Of a DNA stretch of 64,000 nt, positions 10,301 through 55,768 are shown in pieces (position 1 is the stretch's first letter; the number at the start of each line of letters is the position of its first letter). Source of the DNA: Magnetococcales bacterium (GTDB lineage: Bacteria; Pseudomonadota; Magnetococcia; Magnetococcales; UBA8363); the NCBI GenBank assembly GCA_015232865.1, contig JADFYU010000007.1, forward strand, positions 31,554 through 95,553, read 5' to 3'. The position numbers and the translations under genes are program-made. The notes under the pieces are model-generated. The model saw only the letters and a program-made list of their open reading frames with translations, did not search any database and was not told where the DNA came from.

Positions 10301-11051
10301 ACTCTGGCTGGATCGAATCATCCGGGAAAAAATCTTGACTGCCCGAGCTGTCTTTCAACTGTTTCCGGCCAACAGTCGGGAGGATGACGACATCGAGGTA
10401 TACGAAAAGAACGACACCCAACACCCCATTGCCATAGTTCACACCCTGCGACAACAAGGAGTCAAACCGGAAGGACGCCCCCATTACGCCCTATCCGACT
10501 TTATCGCCCCCAAAAAAAGCGGCCTGGCTGACAGCCTGGGATTTTTTGCCGTTACCGTGGGAATCGGGCTGGATGAACAATGTCGAAAATTGGAAGATGA
10601 GGGCAATGATTACGGCTCCATCATGGTCAAATCATTGGCGGATCGCCTGACCGAAGCCTTTACCGAAAAGCTGCACCAAGAGGTCCGCAGCACCCATTGG
10701 GGCTACGCCAAGGAGGAGGTCTGGGATAACGACGATCTGATCCAGGGCAAATACCAAGGCATCCGACCGGCACCCGGCTATCCGGCCTGCCCGGACATCA
10801 GCGAAGCCGCCACCCTGTTTTCCCTGCTGGAGGTCACCGGTCAGATCGGCATCCACCTGACCGAAACCGGGGCCATGTCTCCTCAAGCGGCGGTGTGTGG
10901 CTATTATTTTTCTCACCCGCAATCACGATATTTCCGGGTTGACGGCATTAACCGTGAACAGGTCGAGGAGTATGCCCAGCGCAAAGGAACGACGGTTGAA
11001 AGTGTCGAGAGGCTGTTGACCGCCTACCTCTCCTATGCCGATGGGGAATAA
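7347..11051 (+). CDS. metH: Cobalamin-dependent methionine synthase
   Basis: MetH transfers a methyl group from 5-methyl-THF through methylcobalamin to homocysteine. All four modules are present in 1234 aa: the homocysteine domain with zinc ligands (VGGCCGT near 310), the pterin-binding domain (about 350-620; [13 protein letters not shown]), the B12 cap and Rossmann domain with the axial histidine in DVHDIGKN (near 762) and VGGATTS, and the C-terminal reactivation domain with [11 protein letters not shown] (near 1140) for SAM-dependent reactivation. Full length, no frameshift. The stop codon TAA lies inside the 5-bp direct repeat of a 48-bp miniature element; the likely transcript terminator is about 285 bp further on. 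Confidence 0.98.
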
Positions 11052-11052
11052 A

Positions 11053-11100
11053 CCCAGAAGCGGCGGTTGGCGGTGCGTGCCGACAACCGCCGCTTCCAGG
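11053..11100. repeat. 48-bp end-only palindromic element (mini-element E)
   Basis: The two inverted ends CCCAGAAGCGGCGGTTG and CAACCGCCGCTTCCAGG are joined by a 14-base loop, with a perfect 13-bp stem (11057-11069 with 11084-11096). The right end matches the right end of the full element at 36955-37117 over the GCGTGCCGACAACCGCCG core. The 5-bp direct repeat ATAAA flanks it (11048-11052 and 11101-11105), and the metH stop TAA is at positions 2-4 of the left copy. It looks like an internal-deletion form that moved on its own. Confidence 0.75.
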
Positions 11101-11127
11101 ATAAAGACAAATGGCTTGACGGTTCAA

Positions 11128-11292
11128 CCTAGATTCGGCAGTTGGAAGTGCGTAAGCGCGGTGCAACATATTGGTTTATCTGGTGAACTGGAAAAAATCG
11201 AAGTCACCTTATTGGTGATGAGACTTTTTTCCAGTTCACCAGGTGAATCAAGAGGTTGTGCCGATTGCGTGCTTACAACTGCCGTATCTAGG
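11128..11292. mobile_element. 165-bp palindromic MITE-like element (copy A)
   Basis: The terminal inverted repeats CCTAGATTCGGCAGTTG and CAACTGCCGTATCTAGG (one mismatch) bound a long imperfect hairpin. Its inner arms are CTGGTGAACTGGAAAA and its complement, and the apex is GTCACCTTATTGGTGAT. The 5-bp direct repeats TTCAA are at 11123-11127 and 11293-11297. It has no coding capacity. Copy D at 55348-55510 is the same sequence in reverse orientation, differing by a 2-bp indel, which implies recent mobility. The stop codon of the convergent minus-strand gene falls inside the right direct repeat. Confidence 0.85.
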
Positions 11293-11293
11293 T

Positions 11294-11599
11294 TCAACCC
11301 CACCAAGTCACGTTGGGATCGGGCCGAACATCAAACCGGACGGTCGAACGACCGTCCGGGCGGTTTTTGCTCGCCTCTTGCTGAATTTCCAAGAGCGCTT
11401 GCCGAGCCAGATAGTCGGCAATATGCCGGCACCACTCCTGTTTTTTTGCCTTTAACGACACCGATCCAACCACAACCACCGTCTGTTCAATCAGATCCAC
11501 CTCGACAACCACACCACCCTTGAGGGTCAATTCGACCCCGATTGGCACCTTTCCCTGCCAACGAATGGTGTGGGAGACGACACCGGAGGAGGCGTTCAT
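11294..11599 (-). CDS. Hypothetical protein translationally coupled to yhbY
   Basis: A 101-aa protein I do not recognise. It begins within the last codons of yhbY (ATGA overlap), so it is co-translated with it. The N-terminal half has alternating hydrophobic strands (VSHTIRWQGKVPIGVEL, VVVEVDLIEQTVVVV) and the middle is helical (QEWCRHIADYLARQALLEI); there is no signal peptide. The stop lies in the direct repeat of element A. The last 25 codons also contain the palindrome that probably terminates metH, so this C-terminus may have been shaped by that signal. Confidence 0.65.
   Translation of the reverse strand: MNASSGVVSHTIRWQGKVPIGVELTLKGGVVVEVDLIEQTVVVVGSVSLKAKKQEWCRHIADYLARQALLEIQQEASKNRPDGRSTVRFDVRPDPNVTWWG
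11336..11368 (+). terminator. Intrinsic terminator for metH, inside the convergent gene's 3' end
   Basis: On the plus strand CCGGACGGTCG-AA-CGACCGTCCGG is a perfect 11-bp stem, extendable by outer CCG/CGG pairing, followed by TTTTT at 11364-11368. Orientation and U-tract fit termination of metH transcripts. It overlaps codons of the minus-strand 101-aa gene. Confidence 0.75.
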
Positions 11600-12121: not shown

Positions 12122-15100
12122 ATGAACCGCTTTGATCGTTTATCGACCGGCATGAAGGTCAGTCTAAGCTTTGGCGTTATCGGACTCTTTTTTCTTTTGG
12201 CGACGCTCCACTATCAAAAGCTGGTCATGGATCACCGAGAGCAGATTACGACACTCTCCCAAGCGGCCCAAACACTCGCCGACAGCCAGCAATCTCAACT
12301 CAATCGACCACTGGAAAACCGGTTGAAACAGGGGTTGAACCTGGTCAAGGAGCAACGAGACTACATCAAGAGACAACAAACGGCACTGACAGATCGGGAA
12401 AATCGTCTCAGCCAACTACAAAATCCACAGCGGATGATGCCGGAGCCGACCGGGAAGGTCAAGCCTCTACCCCCGCAGGGAAAACCGCTTCAGCCGGAGA
12501 AAACAGATCAAGCCGATATGACGGCCGATTGGTCGCTACTGAAAAAACTGTTACTCAACGTCATGGATGACCTCGACAACTACCAGAACCAGCCAAAACC
12601 ACAGGTGGCTGACGAGTTACTCTCCTCTCTGCAAGAGATTGACCGGGAGTTGATCAGGCAGTCAAACTTTCCCACCTATCTGGGACGCAAAACCGCCCTA
12701 TCCCAACACATTAAAAGCGCCCGGACTTTGCTGAGCAATCCAAGCCAAGTCGATTCAAAAATAATGACCGTTCATCCGGTTACCTCCAAAACCCAGTTAG
12801 ATCAAGCCGCCAGACAACTCAAACAGGCTTTCGCTCCCTTTGATCTGGATCAAATCCGCGCCCAGGTGATGGTCATTCGCCGCATGGAAAAAGAGTATCG
12901 TCTGCACTGGAAGGTTCGGTTTCGTGAGGATCATGTGGTCAAAATGGGCCTGCTGAAGAATTTTCTTGGCTCAGAGGGTCGTTCTTTTCCAGAGATTGAC
13001 AACAGATTAAATCGTTACAACAGCGCATTTACACAATTCATCGATGAAAACCTGCATGGACCAGCCACACCGCAGACCATCCGGGAGATGAATCGTTCGG
13101 GACAGGAGTTGGAGCAGTACATCGAAAGCCGCTGGGTGGCTGACAGTTTCAGACTGGTCAATTCCCTTTTGCAACAGGCCAAACAGGAGGACGACTCCGG
13201 CGTCGAGAAAATCGTCGGAAAACTGATTCAAGCCATTGATGGCTCCCGAATCGGAATTTTTCAACAAAACCATCTGAAAAAAATTCTCTACAGCTATTTT
13301 TCCGCCTTTAGAAATCGGGAAACGACGATCACCGTCCAGGCTGACTATTCCTCTTTGCCTGCGTCAAATCCGGCGGAAATTGGTCAACGGTTATTGCCCT
13401 TATACCAGCAGATCGTCCTGACCCTTGACGATCTGAAACAACCAAGCCCGACGCCGACAAAAGTCGACCCGATGGTCAAGGTCCCGGAAATGACCGTTTC
13501 CGACTCCATGGAGGCCCGACCCAGCCAGACAAAGGAGCACGACACCCCTCTTTACCAGCCCGGCCCCTTGCCACAAGTCGATTCCAGCCTGTTCGACAAT
13601 CCAAGCCAACCCCTTGGCACAGTTGACGTCAACCCGGCCCTACAGCAGGTGCTGCAAAAGAGAGCCTCGCTCAACCCGCCCCCCTGGACCCTGACCCCCT
13701 ATTGGCTCGCCGTCTCCCTGGCCCTGCTCGGCGTAATCGCCTGGCTGACCGGCAGGACCATCGATTCCGGCCCCAAACAGTTGCTTCTGGCCTTGAAAAA
13801 CCTGAACAGCGGTCGCGGCCTTACCGAATTCATTCAACAGTCAGCCAGTGGTTCAACCCTCCTGGCAGAGTTGGCCCAAGAGGTTTGCACTCTGGTGGAT
13901 CGGGCCGAAACCGTCAACACCTTTACCGGCTACAAGAGCGAGCAGCTTTCAACATCCGTTATGGAACTGGTCAGCCTTTCGACCCAATTGGCCCGCCAGA
14001 ACCAAACCTTGAAAAACCAAAGCGAGCAGGCCGCCAAAAGCACAGATCAACTCTCTTCCGAGCTTGATTCAACCGCCGATGAGAATCGGGTAACTACGGC
14101 TTTACTGGCGCAAATCGCTGAAACAACCGCTCAGATCGAACAAAGCCTCTCCTTTCTGGCCAGCAAGATTCTCGAAACCGACACCCTGCTTGACGGCATC
14201 AACCAAACGACGGATCAAAACAACCAGCAGATGAGCAGTATCCAAGAGGCCGCTCGGCAGGCCGATATTTACATCGACCAAACCGCCGACGTTCTGAACA
14301 GAATCGTCGAGGATCTCAAACAGACAAAAACCCGATTGGCAACCGCCAACCAGGAATCCGAAACCGCTCAGGATCTGGCCCGGAACAACAGCCGGATGAT
14401 GGAACAGTTGAGTCAATCGGCGCAGGAGATCGGCGAGGTGGTGGTATTGATCAACGCCATTGCCGAACAGACCAATATGCTGGCTCTGAACGCCTCGGTC
14501 GAAGCAGCCGGGGCCGGAGAGTACGGCAAGGGCTTTTCGGTCGTTGCCAATGAGGTGAAGGAACTTGCCAGACAGACCGCACTGGCCACCCAACTGATCG
14601 ATGACAAGGCCGACGATATCCAGACTCAATCCAAGGAGATGAAAGAGCAGGCCACTCTGATCTGTACTCGAATCGATCGGGTCAATCAATCCAATCAGCA
14701 GATCGCTCAGGCTCTAAACCAGCAGGAGGGAATGGTGACGACCATTTTCGATACGGTCAACAAGATTGCCAATCAAAACCGACAGACGACCCAACTGGCC
14801 GGTGATACATCGGAAAATCTTGCTCGTACCAATCAACAACTGGTGGAGCTATCGGATAACACCGATCATCTGAAACAGACCATTGAGCAAACCACCAAAG
14901 GGGTCGAAAGCCTGAGCCAAATGAACCAAAGCAGCCTGAATCAGACCAATCAGACCGGAATCCAGGTCTCTCGCATGACCGAATTCGCCCAGCAGGTCAC
15001 GCCGACGCTGACCAGCCTGACCGATCAGGCCGACTCGCTTTTGGCTACCGGGCAAAAAATTGATTTACAGACCCAAGCCATCGTGAAGGTTTTGACAGAA

Positions 15101-15151
15101 TTGAAACAGGAGACGCAAACATTCGGTTTTCAACCTGACAATTCAATCTGA
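12122..15151 (+). CDS. Large methyl-accepting chemotaxis protein
   Basis: A transmembrane chemoreceptor that would signal to CheA/CheW. Residues 13-28 form the first membrane helix. A roughly 500-residue periplasmic region follows, predicted helical and ending in a Pro-rich stretch, with no sensor domain I can name. The second membrane helix is near 529-546 ([19 protein letters not shown]), followed by a short linker rather than a clear HAMP domain. The cytoplasmic coiled coil carries the signalling tip near 776-812 ([20 protein letters not shown], then [20 protein letters not shown]). The tip has Gly where most receptors have Arg in EAARAGE. There is no C-terminal CheR-binding pentapeptide. 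No che gene is nearby. Confidence 0.93.
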
Positions 15152-15237
15152 ATTCGGCAGTCAAACCTATAATCGGCCGTTGACGGCTCCTGCCGGCAAC
15201 AGCCAAATCTGGAACAAACAGGCTCAGGAGTCTAAAT

Positions 15238-15615
15238 GTGAACGAAAGATGTCGTCTGGACAAATGGCTGTGGGCCGCCCGATTTTTCAAAACCCGAACC
15301 TTGGCAACCGAGGCAATCAATGGCGGCAAGGTCCACCTCAATGGCGATCGCTGCAAACCGGGCCGGGCACTGTCGGTGGGTGAGGTGTTGGAAATCCGCA
15401 AAGGCCCCTTCGTCTACATCATCACGATTCAGGCCCTGTCCGATCGACGCGGACCCTATAAAGAGGCGATATTGCTCTATGAGGAGAGCCAGGAGAGTAT
15501 CGGACGCAGAGAACGGGTCCAGGAGGGTTTGAAAGCGCAGATCCGGCCCGTTCCCGGTGGCAGGCCGACAAAAAAAGATCGCCGAAATTACACCAAAGCC
15601 TGGCCGTCAGAATAA
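15238..15615 (+). CDS. hslR: Hsp15-like S4-domain RNA-binding protein
   Basis: Hsp15 recognises 50S subunits carrying stalled peptidyl-tRNA and aids their recycling. The 125-aa protein has the S4 domain at the N-terminus (CRLDKWLWAARFFKTRTLAT, then INGGKVHLNG) and a basic tail (GGRPTKKDRRNYTKAW). The GTG start at 15238 is supported by AGGAG 7 bases upstream. The stop TAA is inside the left direct repeat of element B. It lies just downstream of the chemoreceptor gene but has no functional link to it that I can see. Confidence 0.9.
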   Translation: MNERCRLDKWLWAARFFKTRTLATEAINGGKVHLNGDRCKPGRALSVGEVLEIRKGPFVYIITIQALSDRRGPYKEAILLYEESQESIGRRERVQEGLKAQIRPVPGGRPTKKDRRNYTKAWPSE

Positions 15616-15616
15616 T

Positions 15617-15757
15617 CCAAATTCGGCAGTTGAACGGGTGTAGCTGGTGCAATTGGAGTAAAACGCAGTCGCCTTATTGGTGATCAAGCATTTTTTTAAT
15701 TCGTCCGGTCGATCAGAAGGTAGGGAGACGTGCATGGGTTCAACTGCCGAATTCAGG
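15617..15757. mobile_element. 141-bp palindromic MITE-like element (copy B)
   Basis: The inverted ends CCAAATTCGGCAGTTGAAC and GTTCAACTGCCGAATTCAGG are nearly perfect. The apex is GTCGCCTTATTGGTGAT (15668-15684), the same as the other copies with one change. The 5-bp direct repeats ATAAT flank it (15612-15616, 15758-15762), and the hslR stop codon TAA is at positions 2-4 of the left one. The inner arms are less complementary than in copies A and C, so this is a diverged subtype. No coding capacity. Confidence 0.8.
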
Positions 15758-15798
15758 ATAATATGGTCCGCAGTCTTGAATCAGGATGGCGAAAAAAA

Positions 15799-19075: not shown

Positions 19076-19123
19076 CCTGGATACGGCAGTTGTTGGCTCA
19101 TCACTCAAGCTGCCGAATCCAGG
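19076..19123. repeat. 48-bp end-only palindromic element (mini-element F)
   Basis: CCTGGATACGGCAGTTG and CAAGCTGCCGAATCCAGG are joined by a short loop: the same ends as copies A and D with the interior missing, and the same 48-bp length as mini-element E. The flanks differ (ATTAT left, TCTAA right), so there is no intact direct repeat. The stop TAG of the adjacent minus-strand gene occupies positions 2-4 of the right flank. Confidence 0.7.
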
Positions 19124-19124
19124 T

Positions 19125-19382
19125 CTAACCGTTCAGTCCGAAGAAATTTTTTGCAAAATGACCAACCACCCCTATGATGATCCCGACCATTCCGCCAGCC
19201 ATGAGGCCGTTTAGCGCCGCTTTTTTTTCTACCCTGCGCAGACGATCATCCAAGGTACCCATCCATTTTGTCTGCTCTTGCTGCCGATTCTGGATGGTCT
19301 CCAAGGCCCCCTGCATTTTACCGACTCCCAAAAGCAGATCGTGAAGAATATCCATTTGATTATGGTTTAATTTTGGTTTCAT
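19125..19382 (-). CDS. Small membrane protein, XhlA/holin-like
   Basis: An 85-aa protein with a helical, coiled-coil-like N-terminal half (GKMQGALETIQNRQQEQTKW, LDDRLRRVEKKAAL) and one C-terminal glycine-rich membrane segment (GLMAGGMVGIIIGVVGHFA). This layout resembles XhlA-type phage or bacteriocin lysis accessory proteins. It lies just downstream of an endolysin-like gene on the same strand, which supports a lysis-pair reading. The family assignment is by architecture only. Confidence 0.6.
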   Translation of the reverse strand: MKPKLNHNQMDILHDLLLGVGKMQGALETIQNRQQEQTKWMGTLDDRLRRVEKKAALNGLMAGGMVGIIIGVVGHFAKNFFGLNG

Positions 19383-36954: not shown

Positions 36955-37117
36955 CATGGAAACGGCGATTGGCGGTACTTGTATGATGCAACAGATTGAT
37001 TTATCTGGTGAAACAGAAGAGATCGCCGTCACCTTATTGGTGATCAGATCCTATTCTGTTTCACCAGTATAATCAATGTGTTGCGCCAGATGCGTGCCGA
37101 CAACCGCCGTTTCTAGG
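36955..37117. mobile_element. 163-bp palindromic MITE-like element (copy C) between mrdA and rodA
   Basis: The ends are CATGGAAACGGCGATTG and CAACCGCCGTTTCTAGG. The inner arms GGTGAAACAGAA/TTCTGTTTCACC differ from copy A at three positions that covary, keeping the stem. The apex GTCACCTTATTGGTGAT (37028-37044) is identical to copy A. The flanks differ (ATAAT left, GTCAA right). The mrdA stop TGA lies at positions 2-4 of the right flank. It is the only copy inside an operon. Confidence 0.8.
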
Positions 37118-37118
37118 G

Positions 37119-39017
37119 TCAATCGCCATACTCCTCCGCCGGGGAATAGCTGCCGGACGTTTGAGGATTTTTGGATTGAGCAACAGGCACAACTCCATCC
37201 CCACCGTTTTCCGGTTGAGCAAAAAAATAATCGATCACCTCTTTGGCGACCGGAGCCGCCGAGGAGCTCCCATGCCCCCCGTGTTCAATGACCACCGCTA
37301 TCGCCAATGTCGCCTCTTCGGAGGGCGAGGCGGGGGCATAGGTGACGTAGAGAGCGTGATCGGCATGGCGTTGATTGTCGGATTTGATGATTTGCCCCGA
37401 CTCCTGGCGTTTATGACGAACCACTTGTGAGGTGCCGGTCTTGCCTGCCGCAGTCACCCGCGCCGGTTGAGATTTTTTTGCCGTTCCCACCCGACCGTGA
37501 ACCACCTCTTGCAACCCTTTTTTGATCAGAGCCAGATGGTCGGCTTTGATATGCCCCCAATGCAACACCTCCGGCAACTCATCCTCCCCCCAATCGACCA
37601 GGGTCGGACGATAAACCGTACCTCCATTGGCAATAGCAGCAATCATGTTGACCAACTGCAACGGAGTCGCCAACAGATAGCCCTGGCCGATGGCCGTAAT
37701 CAAGGTTTCTCCCGGATACCAGATCACCCCCTGGGTCGCCCGTTTCCAGGATCGAGAGGGAACCAACCCGGATCGCTCCCCAGCTAAAGCAATGTGACTC
37801 ACCTCCCCCAGCCCCAGCCGCCGAGCTTGACGTTCGATGGCGTCTATGCCCACCTTTTCGGCCAACTTATAAAAAAATACGTCACAGGATTGCGCCAGAG
37901 CCTGAATCAATCCGACCTGACCGTGCCCCTGGCGGCGCCAACAATAGAATTTATGATTTTCCCGCGTGATGTGGCCCGGACAATAATAGCGCTCCTTGGC
38001 ATCCATCTTCCCCTCGGCCATGGCCGCCAACGCCACGATCATTTTAAACGTCGATCCCGGCGGATATTGACCCTGAATGGCTTTATTGCCCAACGGCCGG
38101 TCCGGGTCGGAAATCAGCGCGTTCCACTCCTTGGAGGAAAAACCGCGTATGAACTGATTGGGATTGTAGGAGGGCAGGCTGGCCATGGCCAGAATCCGTC
38201 CATTACGCGGGTCCATGGCGACCACCGCACCGGATTTGCCAGCCAGGGACTTCTCAACCGCTTGCTGCAAACCCAGATCGATGGTGAGTTTGAGATCCTG
38301 ACCCGGACGGGGAGAGGTCTCGCGGAGTTGGCGAATCTGGCGACCAATGGCGTTGACCTCCATCTCCCGAACCCCCTCCCGGCCTCGCAATTCCATCTCA
38401 TACTGTCGTTCCATACCGCTTTTCCCGACAAAATCACCGGAACGGAAATGAATGGCCGGAAACCGCTTCTCATCCTGTTCGCTGACTTCATTGATATATC
38501 CGAGCAGATGAGCCGCAGTCGAACCAAAGGGATAATCGCGAATGGATTGCACCTGGATGGTCACGCCGGGAAAGGTGTGTATCCGGGTCTCGATGTGGCT
38601 CAGCTCCTCCCAGCTCAAGTGGGATTTAATCTGTAGGGGCAGAAAGGAACGCTGTCTGCGCAACCGGTTATAAATTGAATCGATTTGACTTTCGGAGAGT
38701 TCGATGATGGGCTGTAACCGGTTGAGCAATTCTGGAAAATCACCAGCCAACTCCGGGATGACCGCCAAGCGGAAATCCGGTCGGTTGTCAACCAGAATGC
38801 GACCGTGACGATCGGTGATCCGCCCCCGTGGTGCGGAGATGGGTTGAAGAGAGATTCGGTTATCTTCGGCCAGATTCCGATAGGCACCGCCCTTCATCAC
38901 CTGTAGATAAAACAGCCGCCCGCCCAGGATCGAAAACGCACCAAACAATCCGCCGCCGATAACCCACAGGCGGCGTCTGGCATCAATCTGAAATCGTTCA
39001 TGTTCGTCATCCAACAT
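37119..39017 (-). CDS. mrdA: Penicillin-binding protein 2 (elongasome transpeptidase)
   Basis: PBP2 crosslinks peptidoglycan made by RodA. The 632-aa protein has an N-terminal membrane anchor (about 16-38), the class B dimerisation domain (SAPRGRITDRHGRILVDNRP), and the transpeptidase domain with SxxK in GSTFKMI (near 320), the SxN-like SCDVFFYKL, and KTGTSQV (near 523). A Ser/Pro-rich tail ends the protein. It starts directly after mreD (TAA-ATG). The stop codon abuts element C with one base between. Confidence 0.96.
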   Translation of the reverse strand: MLDDEHERFQIDARRRLWVIGGGLFGAFSILGGRLFYLQVMKGGAYRNLAEDNRISLQPISAPRGRITDRHGRILVDNRPDFRLAVIPELAGDFPELLNRLQPIIELSESQIDSIYNRLRRQRSFLPLQIKSHLSWEELSHIETRIHTFPGVTIQVQSIRDYPFGSTAAHLLGYINEVSEQDEKRFPAIHFRSGDFVGKSGMERQYEMELRGREGVREMEVNAIGRQIRQLRETSPRPGQDLKLTIDLGLQQAVEKSLAGKSGAVVAMDPRNGRILAMASLPSYNPNQFIRGFSSKEWNALISDPDRPLGNKAIQGQYPPGSTFKMIVALAAMAEGKMDAKERYYCPGHITRENHKFYCWRRQGHGQVGLIQALAQSCDVFFYKLAEKVGIDAIERQARRLGLGEVSHIALAGERSGLVPSRSWKRATQGVIWYPGETLITAIGQGYLLATPLQLVNMIAAIANGGTVYRPTLVDWGEDELPEVLHWGHIKADHLALIKKGLQEVVHGRVGTAKKSQPARVTAAGKTGTSQVVRHKRQESGQIIKSDNQRHADHALYVTYAPASPSEEATLAIAVVIEHGGHGSSSAAPVAKEVIDYFFAQPENGGDGVVPVAQSKNPQTSGSYSPAEEYGD

Positions 39018-46691: not shown

Positions 46692-47263
46692 GACCGACAA
46701 AAACCTCTCAAACAGAACACCATTCTAAAATCCAATCTCTAACCGCCATTAATGCAACTGACTTGCCAAAACAATGCAAGAATCATCCAAGCAAAAGAAA
46801 TGATTTCTAACTTGTTTATTTTACATACAGTTTCATTAACTTTATTTTTCTAAAACCTAGAAACAACGATTTTCAAACTTCCATTAATCGTTTATTTGTA
46901 TCGTGGCTTTTTTTTTATGCCAGAACAGAAACAACACCGAGACACAAAATTTTGACACTCAAATTTTGGCAGAGCGGAGCAGACCAGTGGTTGGCTGGTT
47001 GACCAAAGGCAAAAAAACAAGAAAAAAGAAGGGTAGGGTTCGGGGCAACGTTCCGAAAAACAGAAGAAGAATTGATTTCGGCAAAAGGTGGCAGGAAAAA
47101 ACCTAGATTCGGCAGATGCAATTTTTTGGAAAAAATGGCGCCCCCGCTTGGGGATGGGTGCCTGCGGTACAAAGGCGAGAACCTTGGGCTTCGCCCAAAC
47201 CCACCAGGGGTGTGACACCCCTGGCCCCCAAATGAGGGAGAACTCCTGCACCCTGTACTGGAT
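46692..47263. other. Intergenic region with solo element end and tandem GC hairpins
   Basis: About 570 bases. The left 200 are very AT-rich and probably promoter DNA. The middle encodes no credible protein. A solo copy of the element end, CCTAGATTCGGCAG, is at 47102-47115. Near the nitrilase stop are two tandem hairpins: TTGGGC-TTC-GCCCAA (47184-47198) and CCAGGGGTGT-G-ACACCCCTGG (47204-47224). They are in a GC-rich tract unlike its surroundings, and could be a dispersed repeat or the transcript end of the nitrilase operon. Confidence 0.5.
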
Positions 47264-55309: not shown

Positions 55310-55347
55310 AATCACGACTCCCTTAAACCCTCTTTGTCAGATATAAT

Positions 55348-55510
55348 CCTAGATACGGCAGTTGTAAGCACGCAATCGGCACAACCTCTTGATTCACCTG
55401 GTGAACTGGAAAAAAGTCTCATCACCAATAAGGTGACTTCGATTTTTTCCAGTTCACCAGATAAACCAATATGTTGCACCGCTTACGCACTTCCAACTGC
55501 CGAATCTAGG
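55348..55510. mobile_element. 163-bp palindromic MITE-like element (copy D)
   Basis: The reverse complement of copy A except for a 2-bp indel (GCGG for GCGCGG). Ends CCTAGATACGGCAGTTG and CAACTGCCGAATCTAGG. The 5-bp direct repeats ATAAT are at 55343-55347 and 55511-55515. The central TAA of the repeat is again a stop trinucleotide, though here no supported gene ends there. It separates the 75-aa gene from argJ. Confidence 0.85.
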
Positions 55511-55768
55511 ATAATCATTTTTCCAATTTTCTCAGCCGCCAGAAACGGATCGGAAACGGTTTTGTCTCTTTTGTCGTTTAATGAAGTATCAAAATTGATG
55601 CCAAGTAAATTTCGTTTTAATCTATGGATAGTTACTGAGATGGAGAAGAGAATTATTCAATCAAACTGTCAATAATTTGGTGGCTCGGGTAGATTTCCCG
55701 ATTGTTTTCTGCCAATTTGACCAATGAACAAGCCGACCTGACCCCTTGACGATGGAGCACACCGAATT

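Follow-up and report, generated by a model that had tools for sequence, protein, structure and literature searches.

Miniature insertion elements of Magnetococcales and other bacteria target NTNAN sites and are over-represented on stop codons

The miniature elements described here insert at a five-base DNA site, NTNAN. This motif is primary, and among the sites that the elements occupy stop codons are over-represented. Seven of them lie in the window, that is, in the whole stretch of 64,000 nucleotides that was analysed, for which an initial annotation had proposed that such elements insert exactly at stop codons; this observation is confirmed in part and holds with the corrections given below. 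An excess of insertions at real stop codons is clear in two of the three genome classes considered, and the explanation that we prefer, with a probability of about 0.6, is that of an IS1380-type MITE that targets NTNAN and whose copies are filtered by selection at gene junctions.

Elements of the window and the stop codons they adjoin

The seven MITE-like elements of the 64-kb window have ends of the CCTAGATTCGGCAGTTG type, are 48-165 bp long and are assigned no strand. Short and multicopy, with terminal inverted repeats, a 5-bp target duplication and no room for a transposase gene, elements of this kind have the properties by which MITEs are recognised. E1, a 48-bp hairpin element (11053..11100), is flanked by the duplication ATAAA (11048-11052 and 11101-11105), inside which lies the TAA stop of metH (11049..11051, forward strand), a gene supported by Pfam. 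E2, a 165-bp element forming a near-perfect hairpin (11128..11292), has the duplication TTCAA (11123-11127 and 11293-11297), which includes the TGA stop (11294..11296, reverse strand) of a conserved 101-aa gene at 11294-11599. E1 and E2 occupy the facing stops of these two genes; judging by the sequence, about 19 bp separated the two stops before the elements inserted. E3, a 141-bp element (15617..15757) with a terminal repeat one base short at its left end, is flanked by ATAAT (15612-15616 and 15758-15762) and by the enclosed TAA stop (15613..15615, forward strand) of an hslR-like gene, for which Pfam supports an S4-domain protein. The 48-bp E4 (19076..19123) has the mismatched flanks ATTAT and TCTAA and adjoins the TAG stop (19125..19127, reverse strand) of a conserved 85-aa gene at 19125-19382, and the 163-bp E5 (36955..37117), with flanks ATAAT and GTCAA that differ while both being NTNAN, adjoins the TGA stop (37119..37121, reverse strand) of mrdA/PBP2, again with Pfam support for PBP2. 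Two unlike NTNAN 5-mers on either side of one element, as at E5, are the pattern that recombination between copies would leave.

On re-reading, the five stop contacts of the initial annotation (metH, the 101-aa gene, the hslR-like gene, mrdA/PBP2 and the 85-aa gene) proved exact to the coordinate, and in all five exactly one base separates the stop from the element end. The annotation was also right that no supported gene ends at its copy D, our E6, a 163-bp element (55348..55510) with the duplication ATAAT (55343-55347 and 55511-55515), as a homologue search with the 84-aa ORF ending there found none. Its count of six elements with resolvable ends has to be raised to seven, E7 (15147..15212) having been overlooked. 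This degraded 66-bp element, with flanks TTCAA and AACAA and a right boundary set by reading the sequence, covers the final codons of a chemoreceptor gene (12122-15151), and the stop TGA of this gene (15149-15151) is provided by the left end of the element; E7 therefore breaks the stop rule. The claimed 5-bp duplication is perfect in four of the seven (E1, E2, E3 and E6 only), and since the flanks of E4 and E5 are unequal, no target duplication is evident at these two. A perfect duplication puts the stop in both copies, so the protein is unchanged, as had been argued.

In a Pfam search the 101-aa and 85-aa proteins had no match. Besides themselves, they have four and seven relatives respectively, several of them named Magnetococcales, which end at the same terminal residue, with one aligned relative ending two residues later; from this shared end residue, the stops of both genes look native. 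The relatives named Magnetococcales make it probable that the window comes from this order. Five of seven window elements on native stops is a high proportion relative to the wider rate (P 0.0025-0.0076), in a window that was chosen for this pattern. A lone element end with one mismatch (47102-47118, flank AAAAA) has no partner that could be found in the window, and an Rfam search of the window returned nothing at the gathering threshold.

Collection of copies and target motif

A pattern scan of genome contigs covered at least 120 stretches, many of them from Magnetococcales MAGs, and also Roseateles, Paucibacter and one Geobacteraceae MAG. In the eight genomes searched, element-end matches with at most two mismatches numbered from 5 to 143 each, against at most two for a reversed-pattern control. 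Elements were defined as pairs of 17-bp ends 36-260 bp apart and were collected regardless of their flanks. The first set, from 120 stretches of seven genomes plus the window, comprises 147 elements; the full set adds 20 stretches of genome G002 and smaller loci, and holds at least 234 distinct elements after de-duplication. Five viral-contig loci (L001-L005), none with a good partner end, were left out, as were elements at most 60 bp from a locus edge and duplicate flanks. In the window, the automatic procedure recovered E1, E2, E4 and E6 correctly, placed E3 one base off, misplaced E7 and did not include E5. Genes were called with a purpose-written dicodon model, which assigned 0.76-0.90 of bases to coding sequence; it missed the S4 and 85-aa genes, so that the window stop insertions counted are E1 and E2 only. 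The three genome classes are Magnetococcales-like, high-GC and G007-like, smaller loci being put into a class by their GC content, and baseline rates at non-stop sites were estimated from the same data. A 14-mer scan for a control MITE family in the same genomes found no usable one; in genome G004, an intergenic 14-mer was hit seven times across four loci, always outside called genes.

Duplications are perfect in 117 of the 234 elements, have one mismatch in 45 and more in 72. All perfect duplications except one (116/117) read NTNAN, i.e. N-TNA-N, and in the first set all 75 perfect duplications (out of 147 elements) are centred on TNA. NTNAN is found on both sides in 36/45 one-mismatch elements and in 21/72 of those with two or more mismatches. 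The target is a palindromic DNA preference for T as the second and A as the fourth base of the 5-bp site. The centres of the 117 perfect duplications are TAA/TTA in 77 cases, TCA/TGA in 39 and TAG/CTA in one. TNA can be TAA or TGA on either strand and never TAG, so that any stop codon of the TAA or TGA type is a legal target. TAG makes up 599 of the 2577 stops called and is the site of one of the 41 insertions on called stops. Because TAG is so rarely used, recognition of the stop codon as such is disfavoured. The TAG contact of E4, where the flanks are unequal and the gene was not called, is a further case beyond the 41.

Excess of insertions on real stop codons

Elements of any duplication quality lie on a called stop in 41 of 234 cases. 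For the 117 perfect-duplication copies the figures are 26 on stops, 77 between genes and without a called stop at their centre, and 14 overlapping called coding sequence; insertion exactly at stops, taken as a rule, is thus not upheld. The enrichment for in-frame stops that the initial annotation had expected is seen: against a control made of exactly the same 5-mers in the same genome group, at non-coding or stop sites, 26 of 103 insertions are on in-frame stops where 7.0 are expected. This excess was repeated in two sets, the first with 14/67 (4.3 expected) and the new one with 12/36 (2.7 expected), and it is still seen when the window elements are taken out of the first set (12/65, 4.1 expected) or when one duplication mismatch is accepted (36/141, 9.6 expected, with 21 more in coding sequence). 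By class, 15/58 insertions are on stops in Magnetococcales-like genomes (2.3 expected) and 8/22 in high-GC genomes (3.1 expected). The absence of enrichment, named in advance as what would refute the idea, is not found overall; in the G007-like class, 3/23 against 1.6 expected is no significant excess.

The distance from a facing stop to the element end has a spike at one base (22/147 elements), with between 0 and 3 cases at each of the other distances up to 60. Models of flank composition gave the same picture, with 14 observed and 1.7 expected in the Magnetococcales-like class, 8 and 2.7 in the high-GC class and 3 and 1.1-1.4 in the G007-like class. An extended target motif was considered as the cause and rejected: the bases 4-5 from the centre differ slightly, and a logistic flank model leaves most of the excess.

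The excess depends on the arrangement of the neighbouring genes. Stops take 17 of the 34 insertions in convergent gaps (10.6% expected) and 18 of the 74 in co-directional gaps (7.1% expected). Gaps of at most 40 bp hold 20 insertions at stops and 2 elsewhere in the gap, with expectations of 1.60 and 1.71, and the proportion of stop sites hit is 20/539 beside such gaps, 8/480 beside gaps of 41-120 bp and 7/619 beside gaps of more than 120 bp. Normalised for the motif, the insertion density at the stop is raised 7.7-fold and 5.0-fold in the two group classes (18 insertions each); past the stop it is 2.1-fold and 3.8-fold at 5-10 bases and about 2-fold at 11-20 and 21-40, in bins where one element may count for two facing stops.

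Two further sources of the pattern were examined and set aside. Purging with age is not apparent, as the share of stops among stop-or-noncoding insertions has no clear trend with the number of end mismatches (17/53 for 0-1, 8/47 for 2-3, 7/30 for 4-5 and 4/11 for six or more). Orthologous copies were not counted twice: with homology taken as an identity above 35% over 60% of the protein, E1 and E2, which lie in the same gap, are the only stop insertions whose nearest genes are homologous; the stop insertions therefore look like independent events.

Selection, insertion bias and other explanations

According to the explanation that we prefer, an IS1380-type subgroup would supply the transposase that mobilises the miniature elements in trans, and these would land on NTNAN sites everywhere, selection then removing nearly all of the coding insertions. 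Where gene ends are tightly packed, selection would also purge hits on ribosome-binding sites or terminators, and the stop codon would thereby be left as the safest site at tight junctions; where genes converge, a benefit of the hairpin may contribute further to the excess. Strong selection overall is suggested by the scarcity of coding insertions despite abundant coding NTNAN sites: Magnetococcales-like groups have 121,368 coding and 26,947 non-coding NTNAN sites, and of 94 insertions there whose duplication has no more than one mismatch, 13 overlap coding sequence. The excess is largest in gaps of at most 40 bp, where neighbouring sites are few and probably constrained. Against this explanation, selection alone must account for the excess in convergent gaps, where neither flanking gene has its promoter, and for the absence of a clear trend of stop share with element age; sites 5-40 bp past a stop are themselves used about 2 to 4 times more than expected, and a higher rate at stops beside short gaps than beside long ones is not predicted by simple tolerance.

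The insertion step might itself favour gene 3' ends, such as DNA near stops that is transcribed or translated, with the motif fixing the base and selection hiding the coding side; we regard this as possible and rather unlikely. Such a bias would agree with the excess over exact-5-mer controls in two sets and over flank models (14 insertions in the Magnetococcales-like class where 1.7 are expected), with its persistence inside the same convergent gaps and with its presence in the copies with best-kept ends. It would also agree with the insertions whose nearest start is more than 30 bp away, of which one lies 2-10 bp past the stop (2.7 expected) and 34 at the stop (4.8 expected). However, TAG stops are few (1/41) and stops as such are apparently not recognised, stops by long gaps are hit less than those by short gaps, a pattern not predicted by a plain gene-end bias, and the G007-like class is not significant in either comparison (3/23 against 1.6; flank models 3 against 1.1-1.4). 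On the evidence of standing genomic copies, selection at tight junctions is favoured over insertion bias.

It is improbable that the NTNAN motif and the absence of elements from genes are sufficient, the stop pattern being a by-product with no further cause. The motif is present in 116/117 perfect duplications and much of the stop-triplet pattern does follow from it, but 26/103 insertions were observed on stops against 7.0 expected, and a caller-free test points the same way: in the Magnetococcales-like class, open frames of at least 100 codons end at the duplication centre in 15/66 cases against 0.9 expected, an upper view of the excess because the background was the same 5-mers anywhere, coding included. 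Very improbable, finally, is positive selection of the hairpins as terminators or protectors of mRNA 3' ends kept behind stops, chiefly between convergent genes: E2, whose core resembles a terminator on both strands, folds as a single near-perfect hairpin (-105.3 kcal/mol, z -16.8), an A-run and a T-run flank the core in 41/75 elements of 155-170 bp and convergent gaps show the highest excess, yet hairpins of 48-64 bp, which have no room for the core, are found on stops no less often (6/23) than elements of 141-170 bp (10/56), and no terminator-like pattern was matched around E5.

Consequences for host genes

A second in-frame stop is found two codons past the native one (STOP-NNN-TAG or TAA) in 34 of the 41 stop insertions; E1, which folds as a single hairpin of -33.4 kcal/mol, is among the seven in which none is added. 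Nine genes were found running into elements, two of which are read through, L148 10363-10414 (52 bp) and L323 12306-12444 (139 bp). In both, element and 5-bp duplication together have a length divisible by three, and the insertions add 19 and 48 codons respectively. In this they resemble the Rickettsia palindromic elements.

Full-length IS1380-like relatives

A full-length relative of 1634 bp (L036 445-2078) has the duplication ATGAT and ends with 4 and 0 mismatches of 17 to those of the MITEs. Its transposase (503-2044) matches PF13701 above the cut-off, and its best NCBIfam match is IS1380 (NF033539), below the cut-off. This copy lies across an ORF that by its translation is putatively recQ-like, and seems not to be at a stop. 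A second relative of 1630 bp, on a Polaromonas plasmid (L329 1448-3077), has the duplication TTAAA and 3 mismatches of 17 at each end, and the best NCBIfam match of its transposase is also IS1380, below the cut-off. The two transposases are 50% identical, and their NCBIfam scores of 130.6 and 155.5, under the cut-off of 180, suggest a divergent subgroup of the IS1380 family.

The L036 transposase had no match in any of the 12 element-bearing genomes searched. The IS1380 model had matches in 6 of these 12, two of them above the cut-off, and near the IS1380-matching fragment of L322 (G002:C41) there is no end with fewer than six mismatches. The element-bearing genomes yielded no complete transposase between matching ends, and mobilisation in trans is therefore what we infer.

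The same ends with NTNAN flanks were also observed in distant groups (Methylacidiphilum, Limisphaerales, Thiorhodococcus and a Verrucomicrobia MAG), with perfect duplications at L086, L087 and L113 and one mismatch at L028, so the system seems widely spread. At L314 5832-8027, a 2.2-kb stretch with sugar-nucleotide epimerase and glycosyltransferase genes is flanked on both sides by TTTAA, between one weak end (5 mismatches) and one good end (1 mismatch); this is possibly a passenger-carrying transposition unit, or chance.

Comparison with known systems and significance

The elements share with the IS1380 family, which includes ISEcp1, the match to transposase models, full-length relatives of about 1.63 kb and 5-bp duplications. 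The ends of ISEcp1 also start with CCTAG, and duplications in the family are in the range of 4-5 bp, in which those of L036 (ATGAT) and L329 (TTAAA) fit. The site reported for ISEcp1 is TATGA and not NTNAN (PMC2887853).

YPAL/RU-2 of Yersinia are likewise miniature palindromic insertions that duplicate their target. The abstract of the original paper reportedly places them just downstream of stop codons. Their duplications are of 3-26 bp, at or beside dyad symmetry, and their inverted repeats are internal (PMC2229807), whereas the elements described here have a 5-bp NTNAN duplication and 17-bp terminal repeats. The pneumococcal BOX elements are also often at the extreme 3' end of genes, and in 36 cases it is the BOX repeat that encodes the stop (PMC3049150); here, in contrast, the gene retains its native stop at all contacts but that of E7. 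Like the elements here, the ERIC, RUP and Correia MITEs are small, carry inverted repeats at their ends, duplicate their target and are regarded as non-autonomous, but their termini are TA (PMC2229807), unlike the 5-bp NTNAN site. The initial annotation knew of no described MITE with such a stop rule, and none was recognised in the available parts of the open-access literature, including PMC9325909, PMC2887853, PMC4133298, PMC3049150, PMC2229807 and PMC3119063.

Because two of the three stop codons fit its five-base target, an element of this kind has a simple route for spreading in gene-dense genomes while leaving proteins intact, and the gene that it follows gains a hairpin and, in most cases, another stop. 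If insertion bias were true, its combination with the NTNAN target would give base-precise landing on TAA or TGA with the host protein spared, and this would be a built-in safe-harbour strategy of a bacterial DNA transposon, a counterpart of safe-harbour targeting.
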